Both the position numbers and the translations under genes were made by a program. Below, piece by piece: positions 13,027 through 27,615 of a DNA stretch of 64,000 nucleotides. Below the pieces are notes generated by a model that saw only the letters and a program-made list of their open reading frames with translations, made no database searches and had not been told where the DNA came from. Position 1 is the first letter of the stretch, and each line of letters starts with the position of its first letter. This DNA is from Stenotrophomonas sp. BIO128-Bstrain (GTDB lineage: Bacteria > Pseudomonadota > Gammaproteobacteria > Xanthomonadales > Xanthomonadaceae), in contig NZ_CP124620.1 in the NCBI RefSeq assembly GCF_030128875.1, positions 434,001 through 498,000 of the forward strand, read 5' to 3'.

Positions 13027-13254
13027 GGCGCTGGCTCCATGAGGGTCTGGGGCGATCATACGCACAGCCGTGTCATGGGATGCAGCGTCATGGCTGCAAC
13101 AGATCGTGGTGCACCTGACAACAGCACGGGGCGCCCGTGCCGTGTTCCCTGTGCAGGACGGAAACAGCCCGTTCCATCCACGGCCGTCGGCCCGGAATGC
13201 GGACACCGTCCTGATCGCTGTGTGACAATCCGCACCAACAGGGAGACCGGATCG

Positions 13255-16200
13255 ATGAGCACGCGCCGCTGGGGTGCAGGCATCGTGCTGTTGGGGCTGT
13301 GGTTGTGCGCAGTGCCGTCAGTGTTGGAAGCCGCAGGGATATCGGCGGAAACGCCACGCTTGCGCCGCCTGGGCGCGGCCGAGGGCATGCCGTCGCGCAT
13401 GGTGCTGGCCCTGGCCCAGGATCGCCAGGGCTACATCTGGGCCGGGACCGATGACGGCCTGGCTCGCGTGGACGGCGTCGGCCTGCGGGTGTGGCGCAAT
13501 GATCCGGCCGACCCCGGCTCGCTTCCCGGCAACGAGGTGGAAACGCTGCTGATCGATCCGCTGGACCGCGTCTGGGTGGGCAGCAATGGCGCTGGCCTGG
13601 GCATGCTGGGTCCGGACCGGACGGCGTTCACCCGCTTTACCGCCCTGAGCGAGGCGTGCGAGGGCCAGTTCTGGTCGCTGGCCTATGCCGCGCAGTCGCT
13701 GTGGATCGGCACCAACCAGCACGGCATATGCCGGCGCAGCGAAGACGGGGCGCTGGTCAGGTACCAGGCCGACCCGAGCGATCCGCGCAGTCTGCCCGAC
13801 AACACCATCTACACCCTGTTGGCCGATCCGCAGGGGCGGGTCTGGGTGGGGACCTCCAACGGTGTCACCCGCTGGGATGGCGACGGTTTCACCCGGATCG
13901 CGCCGGCCCTGCTGGGCGGCAAGAGCGTGTTCCGCCTGACCCGCGAGCCCGATGGCACGGTCTGGGCGGGCACCGAAGGCGGGCTGTTCGAGATCGGTGC
14001 CGATGACCAGGCCCGTCCGGCGCCCTGGAAGCTCAGCGCCGATGTACGTGCGGCCACGGTGATCCACGACCGCAACGGCGGCTATTGGCTGGGCACGGCC
14101 GATGGTCTGTACCGCGGCGATGCCAGCACCGCGCGGCTGCTCGCCGGTGATGCCGGCAGTGGCTTCCTGACCGCGCGCAGTGGCGTGCTGGACATGCTGC
14201 AGGATCATGAAGGCGGCCTGTGGGTGGCGATGCTGACCCAGGGACTGGCCTACCTGCCACCGGACTGGAAGCGTTTCTCCAGCTGGTACCAGCTTGACGG
14301 CAAGCCGTTGGACAGTGTGTACCTGCTGGGCGCGGCAGCGGCGGGGGACGACTTCTACATTTCCGGCGCGCACGGGCTCTACTGTCTCGATGTGCAGGGG
14401 CAGCTGCGCCAGATCGCCGACGACAAACAGATCGGAGTGGGCGCGGCGTGGTCGCTGTTGCCCCGCGAGGACGGCGCCGTGTGGATCGGTCGCGCGGGCC
14501 GTCTGAATCTGTACCAGCCGGCCACCGGCACACTGCGCGAATGGAAGATCGGCGGTGGCGCCGATGTACGCCAGCGCATCGATCTGATCCGGCAGGCACC
14601 GGATGGCGAGCTGTGGCTGTCGATCATGAACTTCGGCATCCAGCGCCGCGACGCCCGCGGCAACGTGCTCGATACGATCCGCAACGACCAGAACCGCGGG
14701 CTGACCGAAAATCCGGTCGAGCAGATGGTGTTCGATCCGCGCGGGCAGCTCTGGGTGATGGGCGACCAGATGGGGCTGATGCGGTGGCGCAACGACCGTT
14801 TCGAACAGGTGCCCGGGATTTCCCGCGGCAGCATCTATGATGCCGCCTGGACCGGCCCGGATGAACTCTGGCTGGCGCGCCAGGGCGCGCTGGAACGGTA
14901 CCGCTGGGACGGGCTCAGCATGAGCCTGCGCGAACGCGTCGGCGCGGCCGAAGGGATGCCGGCGGTGTCGATGGGCGGGCTCGCGCTGGGCAGCCACGGG
15001 CAGGTATGGGCGACCACGCCACGCGGCCTGGTGTGCTGGCAGGGCAGCGAACGTCGATTGCGGCTGTATGGCGAACGCGACGGCTTGCCCGATGTGGAGT
15101 TCAGCAATCGCCCGCCCGTGCAGACACGCGACGGCCGGGTGCTGGCAGTGACCGCGACCGGGCTGGTTGGTTTCGATCCGGACGCGGCGGACATGGTGCT
15201 GCCGCCATCTCAGCTGGTGATCGACAGCGTGCAGGTGCGTCGTGACGATGCCGAGGGCCAGCAGATGCTGCCTCCGCAGGCACCGATCGTGCTGGGACCG
15301 CAGGACCGCGACCTGATCGTGTCCGCACGCCTGCTGTCGTTCGCCAACCCGCACGGCAACCGCTACCGCTACCGGGTGTCCGGCTATGACCAGAACTGGG
15401 TGATGCAGGCGGCCGATGGCGAACGCCTGCTGTCGCGCCTGCCCGCCGGGCACTATCGCATCGAGGTGCAGGCCGCGACGCCGCAGGGCGCGTGGACGCC
15501 GCCCAGCACGCTGGACCTGGAGGTGCGCCCGCCATGGTGGCGCAGTGGCTGGGCGATCGTGGGCTATGTGCTGCTGGGCCTGATCGGGATCGCCGCGCTG
15601 GCGTACGTCGCACGTGCGCGCCTGCGCCGTCGCCAGCAATGGCAATTGACGGTGCACAAACAACAGTTGGCCGAGCAGGCGTCACAGGCCAAGAGCCGCT
15701 TCCTGGCCACGCTGGGGCACGAAGTGCGCACACCGATGACCGGCGTGCTGGGCATGAGCGAACTGCTGTTGTCGACCCCACTGGATGAGGTGCAGCGGGG
15801 GTATGCCGGCTCGATCCAGCATGCCGGCAAACATCTGCTGCGGCTGGTCAACGACGCGCTGGATCTGGCCCGTATCGAGGCAGGGCGGCTGGAGCTGGAT
15901 CTGCGTCCGTTTGATCTGATGTCGTTGCTGGAGCAGGTGGAAGCCCTGATGGAACCGATGGCCCACCACCGTGGGCTGGCGTTCGAACGCAGCTTCAACC
16001 TGCCCGGTCCGGTGCAGGTCAGCGGCGATGAGATGCGTGTGCGGCAGATCCTGATGAACCTGCTCGGCAATGCGATCAAGTTCACCGAGCATGGCCATGT
16101 CGGCCTGGGGGTCGAACTGGGCGAGGAGGGTCGCGCGATCATTTTCGAGGTCTCCGATACGGGGCCGGGCATCAACCAGGACCAGCAGGAACGGTTGTTC

Positions 16201-16803
16201 CATCGCTTTGAACAGGCCGATGGCCCACGGACCGCATCGCGCTACGGTGGCAGTGGCCTGGGCCTGGCGATCTGCCAGGAACTGGCGGTGGCGATGGGCG
16301 GCCGGATCGAGATCGACAGCCGGCTGGGCGATGGCGCCCGATTCACCGTATCGCTGCCGTTGCCCTGGACCGTACAGCCGCTCGGCACGCCGCGTGAGGC
16401 GGGCCACGACACGCGCACGCAACTGCCGCCGCTGCGCATCCTGCTGGTTGAGGACGATGCCACCGTGGCCGATGTCATCGCCGGGCTGCTGCGCTCGCGC
16501 GGGCACGAGGTGGTGCACGTGCTGCACGGCCTGGCGGCGTTGTCCGAGGTGGCGGCAGCCCACTTCGATGTGGGTCTGCTGGACCTGGACCTGCCGGCGC
16601 TGGACGGCATCGCGATCGCGGGACAACTGCGTGCGATGGGCTATGAGCTGCCCCTGATCGCGGTGACCGCACGCTCGGATGCCTACGCCGAGCAGCAGGT
16701 GCTGGCGGCCGGATTCAACGGTTTCCTGCGCAAGCCGGTGACCGGTGACATGCTGATCGATGCGATCGTGCAGGCGCGCGCCGGGAAGTCGCCCCGACAC
16801 TGA
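13255..16803 (+). CDS. Hybrid sensor histidine kinase/response regulator with propeller sensor (array member 1, catalytically complete)
   Basis: A 1182-residue membrane-bound hybrid kinase. In order: signal or anchor sequence (1-27), two-component-propeller repeats (about 35-660, with recurring '[18 protein letters not shown]' phrases), a Y_Y_Y domain (about 665-760), one transmembrane helix (766-786), HisKA with His822 in GHEVRTP, HATPase with intact N ('[10 protein letters not shown]'), G1 ('SDTGPGI') and G2 ('GGSGLGL') boxes, and a receiver from residue 1060 with VEDD, Asp1110 and Lys1160. All catalytic residues are present. Similar architectures in Bacteroidetes sense sugars and end in a DNA-binding domain; here nothing follows the receiver, so output must pass to another protein. 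GGGAG precedes the ATG. Confidence 0.93.
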
Positions 16804-16997: not shown

Positions 16998-19900
16998 ATG
17001 GGCCATCGCTGGGCTGCGGTGATGCTGGGTCTCGCGCTCTGGCTGCCGGTCCCTGTTCTGGCCGGCGATCCCGTCACGGCACCCTGGCCCCGGCCGCTGG
17101 GCCCCGCCGAGGCGCTGCCGACCGCGGCGCTGCGTGCGGTCGTGGAAGACCGCGACGGTTATCTGTGGTTCGCCAGCGACGATGGACTCCTGCGCTTTGA
17201 TGGTCACCGTTTCCGCGCGTGGCGAAGGGAGCAGGGGCTGCTGGATGTGGACGTACGCGCGCTGCATCTGGATGCGCAGAACCAGCTCTGGCTGGCGACC
17301 GCCTCGCAGGGCCTGCTGACGCTGTCTGCTGATCGCCGCGAGATCCAGAGCATGCCGGGCAATGGCGCGGTGGTCCTGCCCCGCATCGGCGTCATGCAGA
17401 TCACCAGCACCCCCGACGGTGTGGTGTGGGTGGGTACCCTCGACGACGGCCTGTTCGCACGGCATCCGGACGGCCGCTGGCAACGCGTGCCGTTGCAGTT
17501 GCACGGTGGCCCCGTGCGCCGGGTGACTGCCCTGGTCACCGACCGCCAGGGCCGGCTGTGGATCGGGACGCCGGCAGGGGCATTGCGGCGTGAGGAACAT
17601 CGTTTCACCCAGGTGCCGCTGCAGGACGACCAGGGCGTTGACGTGCGCGTGCTCTGGCCCGATCCGGACGGCGGGGTGTGGGTGCACACACCGCAGGGGG
17701 TGCACCGGTGGCGCGATGGCGAGCTGCATCGGATGCCGGAGGGCACGGCGATGCCGGTGCTGCGCAGTAGCGCGGGCGACCTCTGGAGCGCCGGCGCAAC
17801 CGGACTGCGGCTTCACGCGCGCGGGCAGGCGCCGCAGCCGGTGCCGCTGCGTGGATACGCCGGCGCCGTGATGAGCACGGCCGCGGTCAGCCATGCCCTG
17901 GAGGACCGGGTCGGCGGCCTGTGGTGGGTCGGCCGCGGCGAGGGCCTGTGGCACCTGCCCGCGCGGTGGCGCCAGTTCACGCTGCTGGCGGCCGCCCGTG
18001 ATGGTTGGCCCGGACTCGATGGCGACCACGTGCTGGCCCTGGCGCCCTCCCATGGCAGGCGGGTGTGGATCGCCGGCGATCGCGGGCGCCTGCAGCGCGT
18101 TGACACGGTGAGCGGGCGCAGCGACCTGGGCGTCGACTACCGCCCCGATCACCTGCGTGCGGGCACCGTGGCCATCGCCGAAGACCGTCGCGGCCAGGTA
18201 TGGGTGGCCAGTGGCAATACGTTGTCGCGCTACCTGCCGGGCAGCGGTGGCCGCCGTCACTGGTTGCTGGGCGTGGGCGGCGACGCGGGGAGGGTCGATC
18301 TGCAGGCCTGCGGCGATGGATCGTTGTGGCTCGGGCGTGCCGACCGCATCCAGCGACGCGATGCCGACGGTGTGCTGCAGTTGTCCGCCGCGCCGCACAC
18401 CCTCGGGCTGGTGCCGCCGAGCCATGGCCCGCAGTTGCTGTGCGATGACGATGGCCGGCTGTGGGCAACCGACCGCAGCGGCGTCAAACGCTGGCTGCCG
18501 GCGCAGGAACGCTTCGCGGTCGTGGAGGGAGCGCCGCGCGGCGAAGTGGGGGCGATCGCCCGCGGCGAGGATGGCCACTACTGGATCAGCAGCCTCGGGG
18601 TACTGCGGCGCTACCGCTGGGATGGCCAGCAGCTGCGCAAGACGCACAGCTTCGGCCCTGCGCACGGGTATCCGCGTCTGCTGGCACGCGCACTGGTGGT
18701 CGACGCAGCGGGCGTTGCATGGGCAGGCGATGCACGTGGCCTGGTCCGGGTCGACCCGCACGGCGGCGGCGTGCGCCACTTCGGCGGCGATGAGGGGCTG
18801 CCGGCGCAGGGCGTGGTGCCGCACGGGCTGGTGCGCACCGCCGACGGTCGGCTTGCCGCTGCGGTCAGCGAAGGCGGTCTGTTGCTGATTGATCCGGCCG
18901 GTGTCACGGGCCCTGAGCGCGCGCCGGGTCTGGTCATCCATGCGATCACTGCTCGCCGTGGCAAGGCGCAGATCACGCTGCCGGTCGGCGCCGGCCCGGT
19001 GCCGCTCTCGGGTGCTGATCGGCATGTGCGCGTTGCCGCGCGGCTGCTCAGCAGCGGTGCGCCGTCGCACGTGCAGTATCGGTTCCGGCTGCAGGATCAC
19101 GAGGCCCAGTGGCAGGAAAGTGATGCCGCCGGGCTGCGCGTGTTCGAACGTCTGCCGGTGGGGCTGCAGACGCTGGAGGTGCAGGCCCGGCAGGGAAACG
19201 GCCGATGGTCGCCGGTGCGCCGGGTGACATTGCAGGTGGCCCCGGCATGGTGGCAGGCGCCGCCGGCCCGGTGGGCCGCCGCGGCCGCGGGGCTGGGCGC
19301 GGTGTGGCTCTGGGGATGGCGCTTTCACGTACGCCGCGGTCGCCAGCGGCGCTGGCGCTGGTTGCGTGCCCGGCAGGGGCATGCCGAGCGCGCATCCGTG
19401 CAGCGCACCCGTTTCCTGACCACGCTGGGGACCCGCATCCGGGTGCCGATGACCGCGGTGCTGGGATGGAGCGAACTGCTGCTGCGCTCACCGCTTCCGC
19501 CAGACCAGCGCAGCCGGGTCAACAGCCTGCACCATGCCGGTGAGCACCTGCTGCGGCTGATGGATGACGCACTGGATCTGGCCAGCATCGAATCAGGGGA
19601 ACTGCAGTTGCAGCCGGCACCGTTCGTGCTGCAGCGGATGATCGAAGCACTGCACGCGCTGCTGCTGCCGGTGGCGCAGGGCAAGGCGCTTGCGTTGGAG
19701 TGGCACAGCACGCTGCCGGCCTCGGCGTGCGTCATCGGCGATGCGCGTCGCCTGCGCCAGATCCTGCTCAACCTGCTCGGCAACGCGCTGAAGTTCACCG
19801 CGCAGGGAACGGTGCGGCTGGAGGCGCACGGCGGACACGATGGCCAAGGGATCGTGCTGCGGGTGTGCGATACCGGACCGGGTATGACGCCGGCGCAGTG

Positions 19901-20504
19901 CCAGCGCCTGTTCCAGCGCTTTGAACAGGCCGATGGCGCGCAGACCGCGGCCCGTTACGGCGGCAGTGGGCTGGGATTGTCGATCTCACGCGATCTGGCA
20001 GTGGCCATGGACGGCGATATCACCGTGACCAGCGTTCCCGGCCAGGGCACCTGTTTCCAGGTGGCGCTGCCCTTGCCGCGCGGTGAGCTCCCCACCGGCA
20101 TCGTTGCAGCGTGTGCGCTGCCGGGGCCGGCTGCGGCCGGCGCACTGCGCGTGCTGGTGGTGTATCCCTCAGCGGTCGTTGCCGAGGTGCTGCTGGCCAT
20201 GCTGGCCTCCCTGGGCCATCTGCCCACCCACTTTCCCGGCGCGGATGCACTGCCGCCCACCGCCGCGGACGGTGCGGGTTGGGACGTCATCGTGGTCGAT
20301 CCCGCCCTTAGGGTGGATGGCGAACGCGTGGGGGCACGGCTGTCGCGGCGGTGGCCGGGGGTGCCACGGGTAGCACTGACTGCGCGTGCGGATGCCGCTG
20401 CGCAGCGCGAGGCGATCGCGGCCGGCTTCGAGCTGTTCCTGCGCCTGCCCGTGAGCCGGGCGGCGTTGGGCGATGGACTGGCCAGATGCCGGCGCAGCGC
20501 ATGA
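16998..20504 (+). CDS. Degenerate hybrid histidine kinase with propeller sensor (array member 2: no phosphoacceptor His, ruined receiver, intact ATPase)
   Basis: A 1168-residue paralogue of its neighbours: signal peptide (1-21), propeller repeats, Y_Y_Y domain, transmembrane helix (about 758-775), dimerization helix, HATPase, receiver. The H-box GHEVRTP is replaced by GTRIRVP, so the phosphoacceptor His is Thr812 and the adjoining acidic residue is Arg813. The ATPase still has 'NLLGNALKFT', 'CDTGPGM' and 'GGSGLGL'. The receiver keeps only Asp1101; its acidic pocket is Tyr1056-Pro-Ser and the conserved Lys is Leu1150. The frame is open and well coded, so this is not a pseudogene by decay of the frame. 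It overlaps gene 3 by ATGA. The start at 16998 is chosen for the signal peptide; starts at 16938, 16947 or 17023 are possible. Confidence 0.9.
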   Translation: MGHRWAAVMLGLALWLPVPVLAGDPVTAPWPRPLGPAEALPTAALRAVVEDRDGYLWFASDDGLLRFDGHRFRAWRREQGLLDVDVRALHLDAQNQLWLATASQGLLTLSADRREIQSMPGNGAVVLPRIGVMQITSTPDGVVWVGTLDDGLFARHPDGRWQRVPLQLHGGPVRRVTALVTDRQGRLWIGTPAGALRREEHRFTQVPLQDDQGVDVRVLWPDPDGGVWVHTPQGVHRWRDGELHRMPEGTAMPVLRSSAGDLWSAGATGLRLHARGQAPQPVPLRGYAGAVMSTAAVSHALEDRVGGLWWVGRGEGLWHLPARWRQFTLLAAARDGWPGLDGDHVLALAPSHGRRVWIAGDRGRLQRVDTVSGRSDLGVDYRPDHLRAGTVAIAEDRRGQVWVASGNTLSRYLPGSGGRRHWLLGVGGDAGRVDLQACGDGSLWLGRADRIQRRDADGVLQLSAAPHTLGLVPPSHGPQLLCDDDGRLWATDRSGVKRWLPAQERFAVVEGAPRGEVGAIARGEDGHYWISSLGVLRRYRWDGQQLRKTHSFGPAHGYPRLLARALVVDAAGVAWAGDARGLVRVDPHGGGVRHFGGDEGLPAQGVVPHGLVRTADGRLAAAVSEGGLLLIDPAGVTGPERAPGLVIHAITARRGKAQITLPVGAGPVPLSGADRHVRVAARLLSSGAPSHVQYRFRLQDHEAQWQESDAAGLRVFERLPVGLQTLEVQARQGNGRWSPVRRVTLQVAPAWWQAPPARWAAAAAGLGAVWLWGWRFHVRRGRQRRWRWLRARQGHAERASVQRTRFLTTLGTRIRVPMTAVLGWSELLLRSPLPPDQRSRVNSLHHAGEHLLRLMDDALDLASIESGELQLQPAPFVLQRMIEALHALLLPVAQGKALALEWHSTLPASACVIGDARRLRQILLNLLGNALKFTAQGTVRLEAHGGHDGQGIVLRVCDTGPGMTPAQCQRLFQRFEQADGAQTAARYGGSGLGLSISRDLAVAMDGDITVTSVPGQGTCFQVALPLPRGELPTGIVAACALPGPAAAGALRVLVVYPSAVVAEVLLAMLASLGHLPTHFPGADALPPTAADGAGWDVIVVDPALRVDGERVGARLSRRWPGVPRVALTARADAAAQREAIAAGFELFLRLPVSRAALGDGLARCRRSA

Positions 20505-23500
20505 GCGGCACGCCGCACCGAGGGTGCCGATGGGGGCGGTGGGGGCTGCTGGTCTGGCTGCTGCAGGCGTTTCCGGTGCTGGCGCTGCCCAGCCATGGCA
20601 TACGGATGACGACCGTCGACGGATTGCCGTCCAACGTGGTGCATCAGATCGTGGAGGACCGTAAGGGCTATCTCTGGTTCGCGACGGGCGACGGCCTGGC
20701 GCGCTATGACGGCAGCGGTTTCCGGATCTGGCGCATGGAACACGGCCTGGCCGACAACGTGGTGCGCAGCCTGGCCCTCGATGCTCGTGACCAGCTATGG
20801 ATCGGCACCGGCAACGGTTATCTGCAGCGTCTTTCCGCTGACCGCCAGCAGTTCGCCCGGTGGGCGGGGCCGGCGGTACCCACGGTGGCGGCCAGCCCGA
20901 TCCTGGCGATCCAGCCCATGGACGATGGCAGCGTCTGGTTTGGTACCCGCGATGCCGGTCTGTTCCGGCTCGACCGCGATCACTTCCTGCGTCAGCACCT
21001 GCCGGCCGCTGGCGGTGGTGGTTTGCCGTCGGCACGGGTGGAGCGGCTCGTGTCCGATCCGCACGGCGGCCTGTGGATCGGCAGTGCCGCCGGGCTGGCG
21101 AGGTGGCAGCACGACCGGTTCCAGGCGCCTGCGATGCTCGGCGCTTCCCCTCGGCCGGTGACCGCGCTCGGCCTGGATTCGCAGGGGCGGCTGCATTCCA
21201 GCACGGGCGAGGGTTCGCGGGTGCGGCAGCTGCCGTCCTTGCAACCCGTTTCCGGGCACCGCACACCGGCCCGTTGGCTCGGCGCAGCGCGGCGTGGCGG
21301 GGACTGGTTCGGCGATGGCGACCAGGTGTGGTGGCAGGATCAGCACGGCCGGAACCACCACGCGCTCCAACTGCCCCGGCCGCACGGGCGCGAGGTGTCG
21401 CGCATCGGGCAGGCGTTCGAGGACCGGCAGGGGCGGGTCTGGTTGTCGGGAAGCCGCCAGGGCGTATGGCGACTCGGCGCCCAGTGGCGGCACTTCGAGC
21501 GTTTCGCCGCACCGGCCGGACCCATCGCCGGTGCGGCAGGCAGCCTGGCCCCGGCGGCAGACGCACACGCATGGTGGGCACGCGGCGGCACGCTCGCCCG
21601 TCTCTCGCCGGAGCAGGGCTTCTCCCCCGCGCGGTGGTCCTATGCACAGGATCCAGCACGTGCCGATCGCCACGTGGTGGTTGAAGATCCGCAGGGCGTG
21701 GTGTGGGTCTTCGCGGCGCCGTGGCTAACCCGGATCGATCCGCTGCGCCGGCGTCGGCAGCGCTGGCAGGTGGGGGCGGCCAGTGTGTCGCCGGGCACGT
21801 CGCCGCAGGCCGCGTTGCTGGCCTGTGGCGATCACGTGTGGCTGGCCGGCAATGGCCGCGTGGAGCAGCGTGCGGGCGATGGCCGCGTCCTGGCCAGTGC
21901 TGCCTACGCGGCGGCGGGCCTGCGCCCGGGCGTGGCGGAGTTCGCGCTCCAGTGCAGCCCTGGCGGAGAGGTATGGTTGGGGGACGGCGAGGGTCTCAAA
22001 CAGTGGCACGTGGCGGCCAGCCGTTTTCTCCCGGTGCCGGGCAGCGGCCGGCGGGAGATCGGCGCGCTGCATCTAGCCTCCGATGGGTGGCTGTGGGCAG
22101 CCGATGCGGAGGGCTGGTCGGCCTACCAGCATGCGCCCGGCCGCCCGCCTCACAGCCAACGGGTTGACGCGGCGCAGGGAGTACCGGCCGCGTTGCCACG
22201 CGGATTGAGCGGCGCCCCGGATGGTGCCTTATGGGCCACCACGGCGCGCGGGGTGGTGCGCCTGGCCCCGGAGCGAGGCAGTGCGCGGCTGTACACCGCC
22301 GATGATGGCCTGCCGCTGATGGTGTTCGATACTGGCCTGGTTGCTGCCGGAGCGCATCTGCTCGCCCTGGAAGCCAACGGCGATGTGCTCGCATTGCATC
22401 CGGCGGGCATGGTCGACGCCACGACGCCGGCATCGCTGGTGATCGACCGGGTGAAGGTGCGCCGACAACGGCGCTGGGTCGAGCTGCCTTCCACCGATCC
22501 ACTGCAGCTCAACGCCGATGATCGCGACATCCAGTTGTCGGCGCGCCTGCTGAGCGGCCGGCCCGACGGTGTGAGCGGGTATCGATTCCGGCTGCGGGGC
22601 GAAGACCCCGAATGGGTCCGCGCCGGGCGACGCGGCGCGCGCGGCTTCCCCCGCCTGCCGGCCGGCGAGCATGTACTGGAATTCCAGGCACGTGACGTGG
22701 ATGGGCAATGGTCGGCCCTGCAGCAGGTGCACCTGCACGTGGCCTACAACGGTTGGGCGCATCCCGGGGCGTGGGCGTTGCTGTGGCTGCTCGCCGCCAG
22801 TGCCGGCACGTTGCTGGTGTGGACGCTGAGGCAGCGGCGGCAGCGCGCGCTCGCCTGGCGGGCGGCCACGCGCCGCCAGGCACGTGCCGAGCAGGCCGCG
22901 CAGGCCAAGGCGCGCTACATGGCCACGCTGGGCCATGAAGTCCGGACACCGCTCACCGGCGTGCTTGGCATGAGCGAACTGCTGTTGGCTACGCCGTTAC
23001 CCGCAGGCGCGCGCGAACAGGTGCTGCATATCCAGCAGGGCGGGCGTGCATTGCTGCAGGTGGTCGACGAGGCGTTGGAGATGGCCAGGCTGCAGGCCGG
23101 CAAGGTGATGCTGCATCCACGGGGCTTTGCCATCGGTCCGTGGTGGGACGAGGTACATGCCGCCGTGGCCGGGGGTCTGGAGGCGGGTGGCTGCCGCCTC
23201 GTGTTGGCCCCGCCATTGCAACCCGGTGCCAGCGCCGTGGGCGACCCGGACCGGTTGCGACAAGCCGTGGAACTGCTCGCGTGCGGGTTGGCAGAGCAGA
23301 CCGGGGCTGTCCGGTTGACCCTGCGCATCGCCTGGCGGCCGGGCTGCAGTGGCCTGCTGCTGGATGTGCTCGCCGAACCGGGGGCCTGTCCGTCCCCAGC
23401 GCCGTTGCAGGTACGCGAGGCCTTGGCCGATGTCGACGTGCTGATCGGCGCGATGCACGGGCACCTGCGCGTGTCGCGGTTGCCTGATCACCGCTGGCAG

Positions 23501-24010
23501 GGGACGCTGAGTGCCCCGCTGGAAGGCTGCCAGGCGATCGGGCCCCACGCGACCGCACCGCAGGGCGATGCGCTCGATGCCCTTCAGGTCATGCTGGTGG
23601 AAGATGATCCGCTGGTGGCCGAGGTGGTCGGCGCACTGCTGCGGCTGCGCGGTCACACCGTCGTGCATGCCGCGCACGCGCTGGCGGCACTGACCGCGCT
23701 GGCCCGCCCCGGCACCCAGCTGATGCTGTTGGACCTGGACCTGCCGGGCATGGACGGGCTGTCACTGCTGCGCCTGCTGCGTCAGCAGGGCAAACGCCTG
23801 CCGATACTGGTGCTGACGGCGCGACGGGAGCTGGACCTGGAGCTGCAGGTCATCGCCGCCGGCGCGGACGGTCTGGTGCACAAGCCACTGCAGGGCGATG
23901 CGCTGCACACAGCGATGCAACGGCTCGCCTTGCCGCGCGTGGATCGTGCCGGCGCGGGGAACGGTTTACTATGCGGGGCGTTGCCCGACGACCGGGGTGG
24001 TCAGGGGTGA
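20501..24010 (+). CDS. Degenerate hybrid histidine kinase with propeller sensor (array member 3: intact His and receiver, ruined ATPase)
   Basis: A 1169-residue paralogue translationally coupled to gene 2 (ATGA overlap). It has an N-terminal hydrophobic signal, propeller repeats, Y_Y_Y domain, transmembrane helix (about 756-776) and a normal H-box with His812 in GHEVRTP. The ATPase is not functional by sequence: where the paralogues have [15 protein letters not shown] it reads RQAVELLACGLAEQT (metal-binding Asn replaced by Gly929), the G1 Asp is lost ('LAEPGAC'), and the ATP lid with F and G2 boxes is missing. The receiver (from 1028) is complete: VEDD, Asp1078, Lys1128. It therefore cannot phosphorylate itself but could accept phosphate from a partner and pass it to its own receiver. 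Confidence 0.9.
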   Translation: MSGTPHRGCRWGRWGLLVWLLQAFPVLALPSHGIRMTTVDGLPSNVVHQIVEDRKGYLWFATGDGLARYDGSGFRIWRMEHGLADNVVRSLALDARDQLWIGTGNGYLQRLSADRQQFARWAGPAVPTVAASPILAIQPMDDGSVWFGTRDAGLFRLDRDHFLRQHLPAAGGGGLPSARVERLVSDPHGGLWIGSAAGLARWQHDRFQAPAMLGASPRPVTALGLDSQGRLHSSTGEGSRVRQLPSLQPVSGHRTPARWLGAARRGGDWFGDGDQVWWQDQHGRNHHALQLPRPHGREVSRIGQAFEDRQGRVWLSGSRQGVWRLGAQWRHFERFAAPAGPIAGAAGSLAPAADAHAWWARGGTLARLSPEQGFSPARWSYAQDPARADRHVVVEDPQGVVWVFAAPWLTRIDPLRRRRQRWQVGAASVSPGTSPQAALLACGDHVWLAGNGRVEQRAGDGRVLASAAYAAAGLRPGVAEFALQCSPGGEVWLGDGEGLKQWHVAASRFLPVPGSGRREIGALHLASDGWLWAADAEGWSAYQHAPGRPPHSQRVDAAQGVPAALPRGLSGAPDGALWATTARGVVRLAPERGSARLYTADDGLPLMVFDTGLVAAGAHLLALEANGDVLALHPAGMVDATTPASLVIDRVKVRRQRRWVELPSTDPLQLNADDRDIQLSARLLSGRPDGVSGYRFRLRGEDPEWVRAGRRGARGFPRLPAGEHVLEFQARDVDGQWSALQQVHLHVAYNGWAHPGAWALLWLLAASAGTLLVWTLRQRRQRALAWRAATRRQARAEQAAQAKARYMATLGHEVRTPLTGVLGMSELLLATPLPAGAREQVLHIQQGGRALLQVVDEALEMARLQAGKVMLHPRGFAIGPWWDEVHAAVAGGLEAGGCRLVLAPPLQPGASAVGDPDRLRQAVELLACGLAEQTGAVRLTLRIAWRPGCSGLLLDVLAEPGACPSPAPLQVREALADVDVLIGAMHGHLRVSRLPDHRWQGTLSAPLEGCQAIGPHATAPQGDALDALQVMLVEDDPLVAEVVGALLRLRGHTVVHAAHALAALTALARPGTQLMLLDLDLPGMDGLSLLRLLRQQGKRLPILVLTARRELDLELQVIAAGADGLVHKPLQGDALHTAMQRLALPRVDRAGAGNGLLCGALPDDRGGQG

Positions 24011-24063: not shown

Positions 24064-27000
24064 GTGGTGTTGCGTGTGCTGTGGCCGCTGCTGATCGGCC
24101 TGTGTGTGCTCTGGCCGGCGCTTGCGTCGGCCCAGCCGGTACCGCCGACGCCGCGGCAGCTCACCGTGTTCGATGGCCTGCCATCCAACACCGTCAATCG
24201 CATGGCCGAGGATCGCTACGGCTATCTGTGGATTGCCACCAATGATGGGCTGGCCCGTTACGACGGTCGCAATTACCGCATCTGGCGCGCCGAGGACGGC
24301 CTGCGCGACAACCACGTCTGGAGCGTCCACGTGGATGCGCGCAATCAGCTGTGGATCGGTACGGAGAACGCCGGCCTGGCGATGATGTCGGCCGATCGCC
24401 GCGAGATCCGCTTCTACGATCGCGACAGCCATCCGGAGATGGGCAGCAACACGATCTGGAGCGTGGCTTCCACGCCGGACGGTGCGATCTGGTTCGGCAC
24501 TTACCAGGGCGGCCTGCACCGGCTGGAGCGTGATGGCACGCTGACCCGCTTCATGCCCGAGCCCGGCAACCCGCGCAGCCTGCCGGCGGCATCGATCGGC
24601 AATCTGGCCACCACCCTGGATGGCACCTTGTGGATCGGATCCAAAGCCGGCCTGGCGCGCTGGACCGGACACGATTTCGAACCGGTGCCCAGTGCCCAGT
24701 TGTCGGCGCGCGTCATCAACGGCCTCACCGCCGAGGCCGATGGCAGCCTGTGGATCAGCAGCAATGTCGGGGTGGCGGTGCGCCGCCCGGATGGCCGCTT
24801 CGAACCGGCGCCCTGGGCCGTTGCCGATGGCGATCAGATCCTGGGCATGATGCTGCGCGACGAGCAGGGCGGGTATTGGTTGGATACCCGCTCGGGCCTG
24901 GGCCGTGCGATGGACGGCCAGTTCCAGCAGGTGCCGCTGTACAGCGCGATCGCGCGCGGGCAGGTGCGGCCGAACTGGACCGGCGCCTACGAAGACCGCG
25001 AGGGTGGCATCTGGCTGGCCAGCACCAACGGCGGCCTGTGGCATCTGCTGCCGCGATGGTGGCAGTTCTCGGTGCTGTCGCGGTTGGAAGATGACCCGGC
25101 CTCGCTGCGCAATGCGTATGTGCTGGGCATGGGCGCGGCCGCCGACGGCGGTGTGTGGACGGTGGGCACGCACGGCGCCCTGGACAAGTTCGACCCGGTC
25201 AGCGGGAAAATCGAACAGCACCGGACCTGGGTGGACGGCACGCAATGGCTGCAGTCGGTGCTGGAGGATCCGCGAGGGCAGGTCTGGATCGGCTCCTGGG
25301 ACGCGCTGCTGCGCTATGACCCCCGGCAGAAGCGGATGCGGCGCTGGGGCAGCGACGCGGCGGTGGACGCCACGATGGAGGGCGCGATCGAATCATTGGC
25401 GCTGTGCGACGGGCAGCGCCTGTGGACAGCGTCGGCCACCGGGCTGCAGCAGCGCGATCTCGATGGACGCGTCCTGCATCGCATCGCGCTGGGCCACGCT
25501 GGATTGAGCGCGGGCCAGAACGCGCTCGATATCCGGTGCGGTCCCCAGGACCGCCTGTGGGTGGCCACCGGGCAGGGACTGCTGCAGTGGGTCGCGGCGC
25601 GCTCGCGTTTCGAGCCGCTGCCCGGTGGCCCCGCGGCGAGCGTGCATGCGATGGCGCTGGCCGGCGATGACAGTGTCTGGCTTTCCGAGGAAGGCAAGCT
25701 CTCGCACTACGGCTGGCAGGGCGATCGGCTGACCCTGCAGGAAGTGATCGGCAGCAGTGCCGGCTACCCCGCGATCACCGCCACCGGTCTGGTGGTGGAC
25801 CGGCAGGGGGTAGTCTGGGCAGCGAATGCACGCGGCCTGGTGCGTGTCGATCCGGAAGCCGGCAGCGTGCGCCAGTACGGCGTCCATGATGGCCTGCCCA
25901 GCCAGGAATTCCGCCGCCGCACGCTGACGCTGACCCCGAGTGGTCGCATCGTGGGTGGCACGCCGGCCGGCGTGGTGGTGTTCGATCCGGCACAGGTCAA
26001 GCCGGCGACGCGACGCGCGCCCCTGGTGATCGAGCGGGTCGAGGTGCGCCGTGGCGAGCGTGTCCTGGACCTGACCCATGCGGTGCCGCTGGACATCGCC
26101 GACGGCGACCGCGACCTGCGGATCGTCGCGCGGCTGCTGTCCTTCGCCGATTCCACCTCGAACAACTACCGTTACCGGCTGGCCGGCTACGACCCGGATT
26201 GGGTGGAAGTGGGACCCGGCGGCGAACGTCTGTTCTCGCGCCTGCCGCCGGGCCGCTACCGGCTGGAAGTGCAGGCTCGCTCGGCCGACCACATCTGGTC
26301 GCGGGTGCAGGTGCTGGAGTTCCGGGTGCTGCCGCCGTGGTGGCGGAGCCTGTCGGGCCTGCTGCTGCTGACCTCGGCCGTGTTGCTGCTGCTCAGTCTG
26401 TTCGCCTGGTTGTACCGGCGCCGGCTGCAGCGCCGGCATGCGTACCAGCTGGCCCTGCAGAAGCAGGAACTGGCCGAGCAGGCTTCGGCGGCCAAGACCC
26501 GTTTCCTGGCGAACCTGGGCCATGAGGTGCGCACGCCGATGACCGGGGTGCTGGGCATGAGCGAGCTGCTCTTGTCCTCGCCATTGAACCCCCAGCAGCG
26601 TGGCTATACCGAGTCGATCCGCCACGCCGGCGAGCACCTGCTGCATCTGGTCAACGACGCGCTGGACCTGGCCCGGATCGAGTCGGGGCGCCTGGAACTG
26701 CAGGCGCAGCCGTTCCAGCTGCAGCGACCGATCGACGATGTCTGTGCGTTGATGGCCGCGCTGGCCGGGCAGAAGGGGCTGCGGTTCGTGGTCGACAACA
26801 CCTTGCCGGCCGGCACCCGCACGGTCGGTGACGAGCTGCGCGTGCGCCAGATCCTGCTGAACCTGCTGGGCAACGCCGTCAAGTTCACCAGCCACGGCGA
26901 AGTACGGTTGACGTTGCGCGCGATCACGGCCGGCCGCGGGTTGCACATCGAGGTATCCGATACCGGGCCGGGCATCAGCACCGATCAGCAGGAGCGATTG

Positions 27001-27615
27001 TTCCGCCGCTTCGAGCAGGCCGATGGCGCCCGCACCGCCGCGCAGTACGGGGGCAGCGGGCTGGGCCTGGCGATCTGCCGCGAACTGGCACTGGCGATGC
27101 AGGGGCAGATCGGCGTGCAGAGCCAGCTCGGCGTGGGAACGCGTTTCACGGTGACCCTGCCGTTGCCCCTGGAGCAGGGAACCACCGGCGTGCCGGGTGC
27201 GGCCGAGGGCGAGCAGTGGGTGTTGCCGCCACTGCGCATCCTGCTGGTGGAGGACGATCTGACCGTGGCCGAGGTGGTCAGCGGCCTGCTGTCGGCGCGT
27301 GGCCACCAGGTGGTGCATGCCGAGCACGCGTTGTCGGCGCTGCGCGAGGTCAGCGAGGCGCCGTTCGAGGTGGTGCTGATGGATCTGGATCTGCCCGGGC
27401 TGGGCGGCATCGCATTGGCTGAGCATCTGCGCAGCCAAGGGTTCGAGATGCCGCTGATCGCGGTCACGGCGCGCACCGATCCATCGATCGAGCAGCAGGC
27501 CCGCGACGCAGGCTTCGATGCCTTCCTGCGCAAGCCGGTCACCGGCGATCTGCTGGTGGAGGCGATCGCGCGGGTGCTGCACGCTCCCGGTAGCAGCGGA
27601 CCGTTGGTCCGCTGA
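24064..27615 (+). CDS. Hybrid sensor histidine kinase/response regulator with propeller sensor (array member 4, catalytically complete)
   Basis: A 1183-residue hybrid kinase with the same order of domains as member 1: signal sequence (1-26, ending A-S-A-Q), propeller repeats, Y_Y_Y domain, transmembrane helix (about 763-785), His820 in GHEVRTP, intact 'NLLGNAVKFT', 'SDTGPGI' and 'GGSGLGL' boxes, and a receiver from 1057 with VEDD, Asp1107 and Lys1157. Its kinase core is closest to member 1. The GTG at 24064 follows GGGAGAG; a second GTG directly after it is equally good, and an ATG at 23971 would overlap gene 3. The last nine residues are encoded by a GTAG repeat that also runs into the stop codon. 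Confidence 0.92.
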   Translation: MVLRVLWPLLIGLCVLWPALASAQPVPPTPRQLTVFDGLPSNTVNRMAEDRYGYLWIATNDGLARYDGRNYRIWRAEDGLRDNHVWSVHVDARNQLWIGTENAGLAMMSADRREIRFYDRDSHPEMGSNTIWSVASTPDGAIWFGTYQGGLHRLERDGTLTRFMPEPGNPRSLPAASIGNLATTLDGTLWIGSKAGLARWTGHDFEPVPSAQLSARVINGLTAEADGSLWISSNVGVAVRRPDGRFEPAPWAVADGDQILGMMLRDEQGGYWLDTRSGLGRAMDGQFQQVPLYSAIARGQVRPNWTGAYEDREGGIWLASTNGGLWHLLPRWWQFSVLSRLEDDPASLRNAYVLGMGAAADGGVWTVGTHGALDKFDPVSGKIEQHRTWVDGTQWLQSVLEDPRGQVWIGSWDALLRYDPRQKRMRRWGSDAAVDATMEGAIESLALCDGQRLWTASATGLQQRDLDGRVLHRIALGHAGLSAGQNALDIRCGPQDRLWVATGQGLLQWVAARSRFEPLPGGPAASVHAMALAGDDSVWLSEEGKLSHYGWQGDRLTLQEVIGSSAGYPAITATGLVVDRQGVVWAANARGLVRVDPEAGSVRQYGVHDGLPSQEFRRRTLTLTPSGRIVGGTPAGVVVFDPAQVKPATRRAPLVIERVEVRRGERVLDLTHAVPLDIADGDRDLRIVARLLSFADSTSNNYRYRLAGYDPDWVEVGPGGERLFSRLPPGRYRLEVQARSADHIWSRVQVLEFRVLPPWWRSLSGLLLLTSAVLLLLSLFAWLYRRRLQRRHAYQLALQKQELAEQASAAKTRFLANLGHEVRTPMTGVLGMSELLLSSPLNPQQRGYTESIRHAGEHLLHLVNDALDLARIESGRLELQAQPFQLQRPIDDVCALMAALAGQKGLRFVVDNTLPAGTRTVGDELRVRQILLNLLGNAVKFTSHGEVRLTLRAITAGRGLHIEVSDTGPGISTDQQERLFRRFEQADGARTAAQYGGSGLGLAICRELALAMQGQIGVQSQLGVGTRFTVTLPLPLEQGTTGVPGAAEGEQWVLPPLRILLVEDDLTVAEVVSGLLSARGHQVVHAEHALSALREVSEAPFEVVLMDLDLPGLGGIALAEHLRSQGFEMPLIAVTARTDPSIEQQARDAGFDAFLRKPVTGDLLVEAIARVLHAPGSSGPLVR

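Follow-up and report, generated by a model that had tools for sequence, protein, structure and literature searches.

Can two neighbouring sensor kinases, each lacking a part of the catalytic machinery that the other retains, act as the two halves of one enzyme? This question is raised by a 64,000-nucleotide stretch of the genome of Stenotrophomonas sp. BIO128-Bstrain (contig NZ_CP124620.1, positions 434,001 to 498,000; hereafter the window), which belongs to the same species as S. bentonitica VV6 (G007). In this window, the + strand carries a tandem series of four propeller hybrid kinases, here called A, B, C and D, and the sequence-only reading had described B and C, its genes 2 and 3, as adjacent degenerate kinases that together hold one complete set of catalytic parts. 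Judging from their sequences, it is fairly likely that B and C make up a single membrane-bound hybrid histidine kinase split into two halves, with B phosphorylating C in trans, and the pair probably works only together, reading two signals. The features concerned are as follows.

16998..20504, + strand: gene B, propeller hybrid kinase with an ATPase, without the acceptor His and with a pseudo-receiver (Pfam, motifs)
19401..19598, + strand: HisKA domain of B (Pfam, alignment)
19737..20078, + strand: HATPase_c domain of B (Pfam 6e-29; boxes intact in 20/20 arrays)
20145..20477, + strand: pseudo-receiver of B (motif alignment)
20501..20504, + strand: ATGA stop/start overlap of B and C (open frames)
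20501..24010, + strand: gene C, propeller hybrid kinase that has the acceptor His and a receiver and carries a pseudo-ATPase (Pfam, motifs)
22907..23101, + strand: HisKA domain of C, GHEVRTPLTG (Pfam 4.5e-12)
23213..23545, + strand: pseudo-ATPase of C, limits approximate (HATPase_c absent; AlphaFold2 models)
23588..23917, + strand: receiver of C with the acidic pair, Asp1078, Thr and Lys1128 (Pfam 3.8e-23)
13222..16803, + strand: gene A, complete propeller hybrid kinase with Reg_prop, Y_Y_Y, HisKA, HATPase_c and receiver (Pfam and motifs)
about 24067..27615, + strand: gene D, complete propeller hybrid kinase (Pfam, motifs)

All four proteins are Reg_prop hybrid sensor kinases with Reg_prop, Y_Y_Y and HisKA matches in Pfam, the Y_Y_Y match of C (25.4 bits) lying slightly below the cut-off of 26.6, and by their motifs A and D, which flank the pair, are both catalytically complete paralogues. 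The defects of B and C are complementary, and here Pfam and the motif alignment agree with what had been read from the letters. In B, the position aligned to the acceptor His, 812, is occupied by Thr (codon 19431-19433), with Arg in place of Glu at H+1 and Val in place of Thr at H+4; the N, G1, F and G2 residues of the ATPase are intact (N925, D958 and GGSGLGL from 988), and HisKA and HATPase_c are both matched in the full protein. The receiver of B is ruined: it retains Asp1101 and the Thr, both acidic residues are gone and Lys is replaced by Leu; no Response_reg match is found in the full protein at E<=0.001, and the cytoplasmic part alone gives only a weak match of 5e-4, below the curated cut-off. 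In C, the acceptor His812 (22934-22936) stands in an intact HExxT motif and the full set of receiver residues is present, His812 and Asp1078 being numbered exactly as in the sequence-only reading; Pfam matches HisKA and a single Response_reg stretch in the full protein and gives no HATPase_c match, and the N, G1 and G2 boxes are all gone, so that the ATPase is unusable by its motifs. Going by these motifs, a usable ATPase and a phosphoacceptor His lie on separate proteins, and the four-base overlap of their frames is present as had been reported.

Each defect is rare. Among the 44 HisKA matches in the genome at E<=0.001, B is the sole one without the acceptor His, and C is the sole one without an HATPase_c match within 400 bases downstream. 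It has been reported in a public survey that the His is missing from 0.9% of HisKA domains (722 of 76,471) (PMC12632262), and elsewhere that 3.66% of HisKA proteins lack HATPase (1556 of 42,417) (PMC3591291). Two uncommon defects thus sit in two genes that share four bases, and their pairing is not chance.

The same division is found across the genus. In a sample of 91 genomes, including that of the window, searched with C and with B, the locus was readable in 89; G067, with a fragmented array, was excluded from the counts, and G070 gave no match with B among the matches listed. The order A-B-C-D is found in 20 loci, A-D in 61 and D only in eight, the last including G027, whose contig ends just before D, and G054, on a contig of 5.2 kb. 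B without C, or C without B, occurs in none of the 89 loci, the third gene of G049 being assigned to C by position and motifs (its best single match is marginally D). The acceptor His is missing from B in 19 of the 20 arrays, the site being occupied across all 20 by A, E, G, H, Q, R, S or T, and the ATPase residues N, G1, F and G2 are intact in 20/20; HExxT and the receiver chemistry are absent from every B. C, in turn, retains H, E and T in 20/20 and has lost the N/G1/G2 set in 20/20, and a few single letters remain in its pseudo-ATPases, for instance one Gly of G1 or G2. When the proteins were scanned individually with Pfam, HATPase_c was matched in 19/19 B (B of G072 was not in the alignment) and in 0/20 C, with none at E<=0.1. 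A candidate start of C that overlaps the stop of B is found in 19/19 arrays examined, G072 being left out, and in most of them other nearby starts are possible. A locus in which only one of the two genes is degenerate or present had been named beforehand as the finding that would tell against the pair; there is none among the 89, and the nearest exceptions are the B genes of G074 and G072. In the latter, B is split in the sensor over two overlapping frames (277 + 888 aa) next to an intact C, which may be a draft error or early decay.

The paralogues of the same loci are nearly all complete. Among copies longer than 800 aa, 78/80 A and 87/89 D are complete, and of the four exceptions three, namely A of G007, A of G048 and D of G054, are short or broken, the fourth being D of G036. 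Across 20 loci from nine other genera of the family, the array kinases are catalytically complete in 50/50 cases; these loci share the domains, the tandem arrangement and, in most cases, relatives of the flanking genes with the array of the window, the completeness of their kinases being the difference. They come from a family-wide profile search of 247 genomes, at least 127 of which gave a match to a profile that catches propeller kinases generally and cannot separate C from A or D; at least 114 genomes from beyond the genus matched, of which 20 were opened, mostly for neighbouring hits, so that this control is not random. A scan of genome contigs with C gave 20 loci, three of which are this array and the others partial matches to C.

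It has been reported that a pseudo-receiver is a receiver domain without key residues of the DD/D/T/K set (PMC12632262). The B receiver is of this kind, as its acidic pair and Lys are lost in 20/20 arrays and its Asp is kept in 20/20. At 20145-20477 of the window and in the other 19 arrays, Asp-Pro and Arg-Leu-Pro, the latter with Leu for the Lys, are present in 20/20, and from its residues this domain looks like a conserved non-catalytic receiver.

The division can also be followed within the dimerization and histidine-phosphotransfer (DHp) helices. Class-wide changes number seven in B and three in C in helix 1, and four in B and eight in C in helix 2, the helix limits being taken from the model. 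The helix 1 changes of B include the acceptor His, the adjoining Glu and Thr and a Gly, and a fixed Trp stands at H+12 in all 20 B. Helix 2 runs on into the ATPase domain, so that helix 1 and the His from C together with helix 2 and the ATPase from B would be a natural division. In AlphaFold2 single-chain models of the cytoplasmic parts, the C model has a mean predicted local distance difference test score (pLDDT) of 81 and a predicted template-modelling score (pTM) of 0.55, and the B model a pTM of 0.62, values that leave the domain arrangement uncertain in both. The C model contains a predicted DHp, a pseudo-ATPase with Bergerat-like strand and helix order and a lid region shorter than that of B, and a receiver. 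By Foldseek E-value, the fold neighbours of C are ShkA at the top, RetS, the RetS-GacS complex 7n0e, GacS, CpxA and, lower, DivL, with low whole-chain TM-scores, and those of B are ShkA, GacS, RetS and HK853.

Mean pairwise identity shows which parts have been kept. In B (19 arrays), it is 0.70 in the DHp, 0.69 in the catalytic and ATP-binding (CA) domain, 0.52 in the receiver and 0.51 in the sensor, and in C (20 arrays) it is 0.68, 0.40, 0.50 and 0.50, respectively; conservation thus covers both DHp domains and, of the two CA domains, that of B alone. The ratio of nonsynonymous to synonymous substitution rates (dN/dS), calculated within four groups of near relatives (G049 belongs to none, and the B of G072 was left out because of its split frames), is 0.05-0.42 for the domains of B and 0.05-0.58 for those of C, the highest value being that of the CA of C. 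For the domains of A and D it is below 0.15 except for two values in the S. bentonitica group, 0.29 for the A CA and 0.84 for the A receiver, which are inflated by the frame break in the A of G007. B and C are faster-evolving than A and D, and both are under purifying selection.

In the tree of D, all arrays with B and C fall in one clade of 22, whose other two members are G059, without B and C, and G027, whose contig ends before the site. The 126 bases that precede D in G059 could be aligned to the C-D spacer in nine of 12 arrays with four genes, whereas seven A-D loci from elsewhere in the genus gave no such alignment; together with the nested place of G059, this points to a single loss of both genes. 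These facts describe a single origin of B and C that selection has maintained, and no repeated origins. It can be seen that the two losses do occur together: they are complementary, confined to one Stenotrophomonas clade, under purifying selection and borne by genes that co-occur. B and C form two clean clades with the same branching where it is resolved (12 arrays); their branches are long, and their position relative to A and D is not settled by the tree. The logarithms of the end-branch lengths, taken from the same tree for 12 of the 20 arrays, correlate between B and C with r 0.96 (0.90 without G049) and, given A and D, with a partial r of 0.95 (0.88), compared with 0.82 (0.79 without G049) between A and D; the four mixed pairs range from 0.34 to 0.61. 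Distance correlations in 17 of the 20 arrays, which can be inflated by relatedness and saturation, also favour B-C, with partial values of 0.55 in the DHp and 0.94 in the sensor; the other DHp pairs give 0.32-0.37, values reached in no more than 18 of 500 shuffles, and the sensors of B-D and C-D give 0.39 and 0.45. The sensors of A and D served as the species measure here, so that the sensor correlations of A with B, C or D are artefacts.

How would such a pair work? B keeps its ATP-binding residues while lacking the His, HExxT and receiver chemistry, so that the His of a partner is the only evident use of its ATPase. B and C would pair through their DHp helices, perhaps helped to equal amounts by the overlapping frames, and when the right signals are present at the two different periplasmic propellers, the ATPase of B would phosphorylate His812 of C in trans, which is how CheA3/CheA4 of Rhodobacter sphaeroides operates (PMC3591291). 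The phosphoryl group would then pass to Asp1078 of C where the receiver is intact, or else to a receiver in A or D; alternatively, the conserved role of the pair could be to control these two kinases. HExxT may let unpaired or inactive C act as a phosphatase, which would place kinase activity (B) and phosphatase activity (C) on different proteins. A proposed origin of obligate heterodimers is the duplication of a self-pairing enzyme, the copies of which then lose complementary parts. A fuller version, which is offered tentatively, holds that duplication and complementary loss gave a chimeric core with helix 1 and the His from C and helix 2 and the ATPase from B, such that neither receptor would signal alone and the pair would form a two-signal AND gate feeding or draining the receivers of A and D; from the sequences, two-input AND logic as such is possible.

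Several observations weigh against B phosphorylating C as the general design. The C receiver is complete in 12 of the 20 arrays, partial in four and dead in four, so that a relay within C is neither the conserved core nor the general output; of the one complete set of parts that had been claimed, the His/ATPase split holds throughout, but a complete receiver is present in those 12 C only. In the window, the DHp of B is 63% identical to that of D and 56% to that of A, compared with 37% to that of C, and B may therefore form dimers with either of these two. The acceptor site of B in G074 carries a His (GHRIRVP), with Arg for Glu and Val (+4) for Thr, which looks like a secondary change, as its relatives have Q (G026), R (G030 and G056) and G (G072) there. 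The tree requires one gain and one or two losses of B/C, and the 20 arrays are thus not 20 independent events; all six DHp distance correlations, not that of B-C alone, exceed most shuffles. It has also been reported that ArcB and EvgS autophosphorylate in cis and BarA in trans, the authors being cautious about the cis results (PMC4734776). The DHp hairpin aligns gap-free to BarA and ArcB and with one gap column to EvgS, so that DHp hairpins cannot tell cis from trans, and if autophosphorylation were in cis as in ArcB and EvgS, whose hairpins are of equal or near-equal length, a B:C dimer would be dead.

These points bear on three other explanations. One is that partners are mixed, with B phosphorylating the His of A or D and C being phosphorylated by A or D in a four-sensor hub. 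Complete A and D stand on either side, the DHp of B is nearer to theirs, a dead C receiver in four arrays means that the phosphoryl group needs another receiver, and most loci of the genus (61/89) have A and D but neither B nor C; however, B and C co-occur and share an evolutionary rate unlike A and D, and mixed pairing leaves unexplained why one lost only its His and the other only its ATPase, so that it is regarded as unlikely. It is slightly harder still to credit that C works in the manner of RetS as a phosphatase or phosphate sink, with B as an ATP-dependent allosteric subunit and no phosphotransfer from B to C. C does have the anatomy of RetS, with an H-box with HExxT (kept in 20/20 C), an ATPase without G-boxes and a receiver, and RetS and the RetS-GacS complex are among its fold neighbours, but its top fold match is ShkA, and B keeps its ATP-binding residues in 20/20 arrays from which HExxT, the His (in 19) and the receiver chemistry have gone, so that the His of a partner would be their only evident use. 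The third explanation, that B and C are duplicates drifting to pseudogenes and are complementary by accident, would fit their faster evolution, the split B of G072 and the absence of both genes from G059. Open frames in 19/20 B and 20/20 C across about 50% protein divergence, the dN/dS values and the invariant H-box residues of C and ATPase boxes of B leave it barely any probability, and pseudogene decay is rejected on these grounds.

A split histidine kinase in which B acts on C has known relatives in principle. In Rhodobacter sphaeroides, the kinase and acceptor are divided between CheA3 and CheA4 (PMC3591291), so that the claim of novelty made from the letters stands for the arrangement and not for the principle: among the open-access papers listed by searches aimed at this arrangement, none described neighbouring hybrid kinases whose losses complement each other. 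In the same source, 1.7% of HisKA proteins are counted as possible split bifunctional kinases, and modelling of CheA3/CheA4 shows that a switch-like response can result when kinase and phosphatase are separated (PMC3591291). As in B/C, the ATP-binding and phosphoacceptor functions of CheA3/CheA4 lie on two proteins, which also divide kinase and phosphatase; CheA3 and CheA4, however, have CheA architecture, belong to a cytoplasmic chemotaxis cluster and lack domains outright (PMC3591291), whereas B and C are propeller-sensor hybrid kinases with HisKA, HATPase_c and receiver architecture in full domain order, have lost catalytic residues and lie between complete paralogues. The pair is thus not a member of the CheA family, although it may work like CheA3/CheA4. 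Hik36/Hik43 of Synechocystis has likewise been termed a split histidine kinase, and its parts interact in two-hybrid assays, but it is a CheA homologue encoded by two distant genes, with the phosphotransfer domain and kinase core on different proteins (PMC7656254).

Degenerate kinases are also known. RetS, which C resembles in its H-box with HExxT, its ATPase without G-boxes and its receiver, contacts another kinase, GacS, as is proposed here for C (PMC5992135). The H-box and ATPase features are found in 20/20 C, but RetS has two receivers and C has one receiver and a propeller sensor, and GacS of Pseudomonas aeruginosa autophosphorylates, whereas B has no His with which to do so (PMC5992135). 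Should C inhibit a partner kinase in the manner of a RetS-type pseudo-kinase, A and D would be candidate targets. The DivL structure 4q20 is among the fold matches found by Foldseek. At its acceptor site DivL has a Tyr, which none of the 20 B proteins has, and the ATPases of B are apparently usable. DivL of Caulobacter is described as a pseudo-histidine kinase that retains the kinase fold (PMC9430884), and the fold is likewise retained here. Split kinases and degenerate kinases are each known already, and the arrangement of B and C is the new part. It provides a natural case among histidine kinases, in which 20 split arrays and a probable reversal (G059) can be compared with A-D arrays, and it makes testable both the trans action of a hybrid kinase and a switch-like output from a kinase/phosphatase split, as modelled for CheA3/CheA4 (PMC3591291).

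Some further observations concern the neighbourhood and the paralogues. The start codon of gene A is uncertain, and an in-frame GTG at 24007, upstream of the D start, would overlap the stop of C. A scan upstream of B for promoters and terminators found nothing, and none of the ten Hpt matches in the genome lies inside the window. In S. bentonitica VV6, A is broken into two frames (about 990 + 203 aa), which may be a sequencing error or a recent loss, as the gene is intact in the window; in G036, D has Tyr at the His position in the alignment and an internal TAG, and A is in two pieces. The putative flanking genes, named from their translations, are cytochrome b561, YceI, an MFS transporter and hemE, relatives of which are found in 98/111, 102/111, 89/111 and 46/111 fetched loci, respectively, many of these loci ending before hemE. 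The 20 loci opened in nine other genera carry two to four complete propeller kinases in tandem, at least several of them beside the same flanking genes, which suggests that kinases have long been duplicated at this site.

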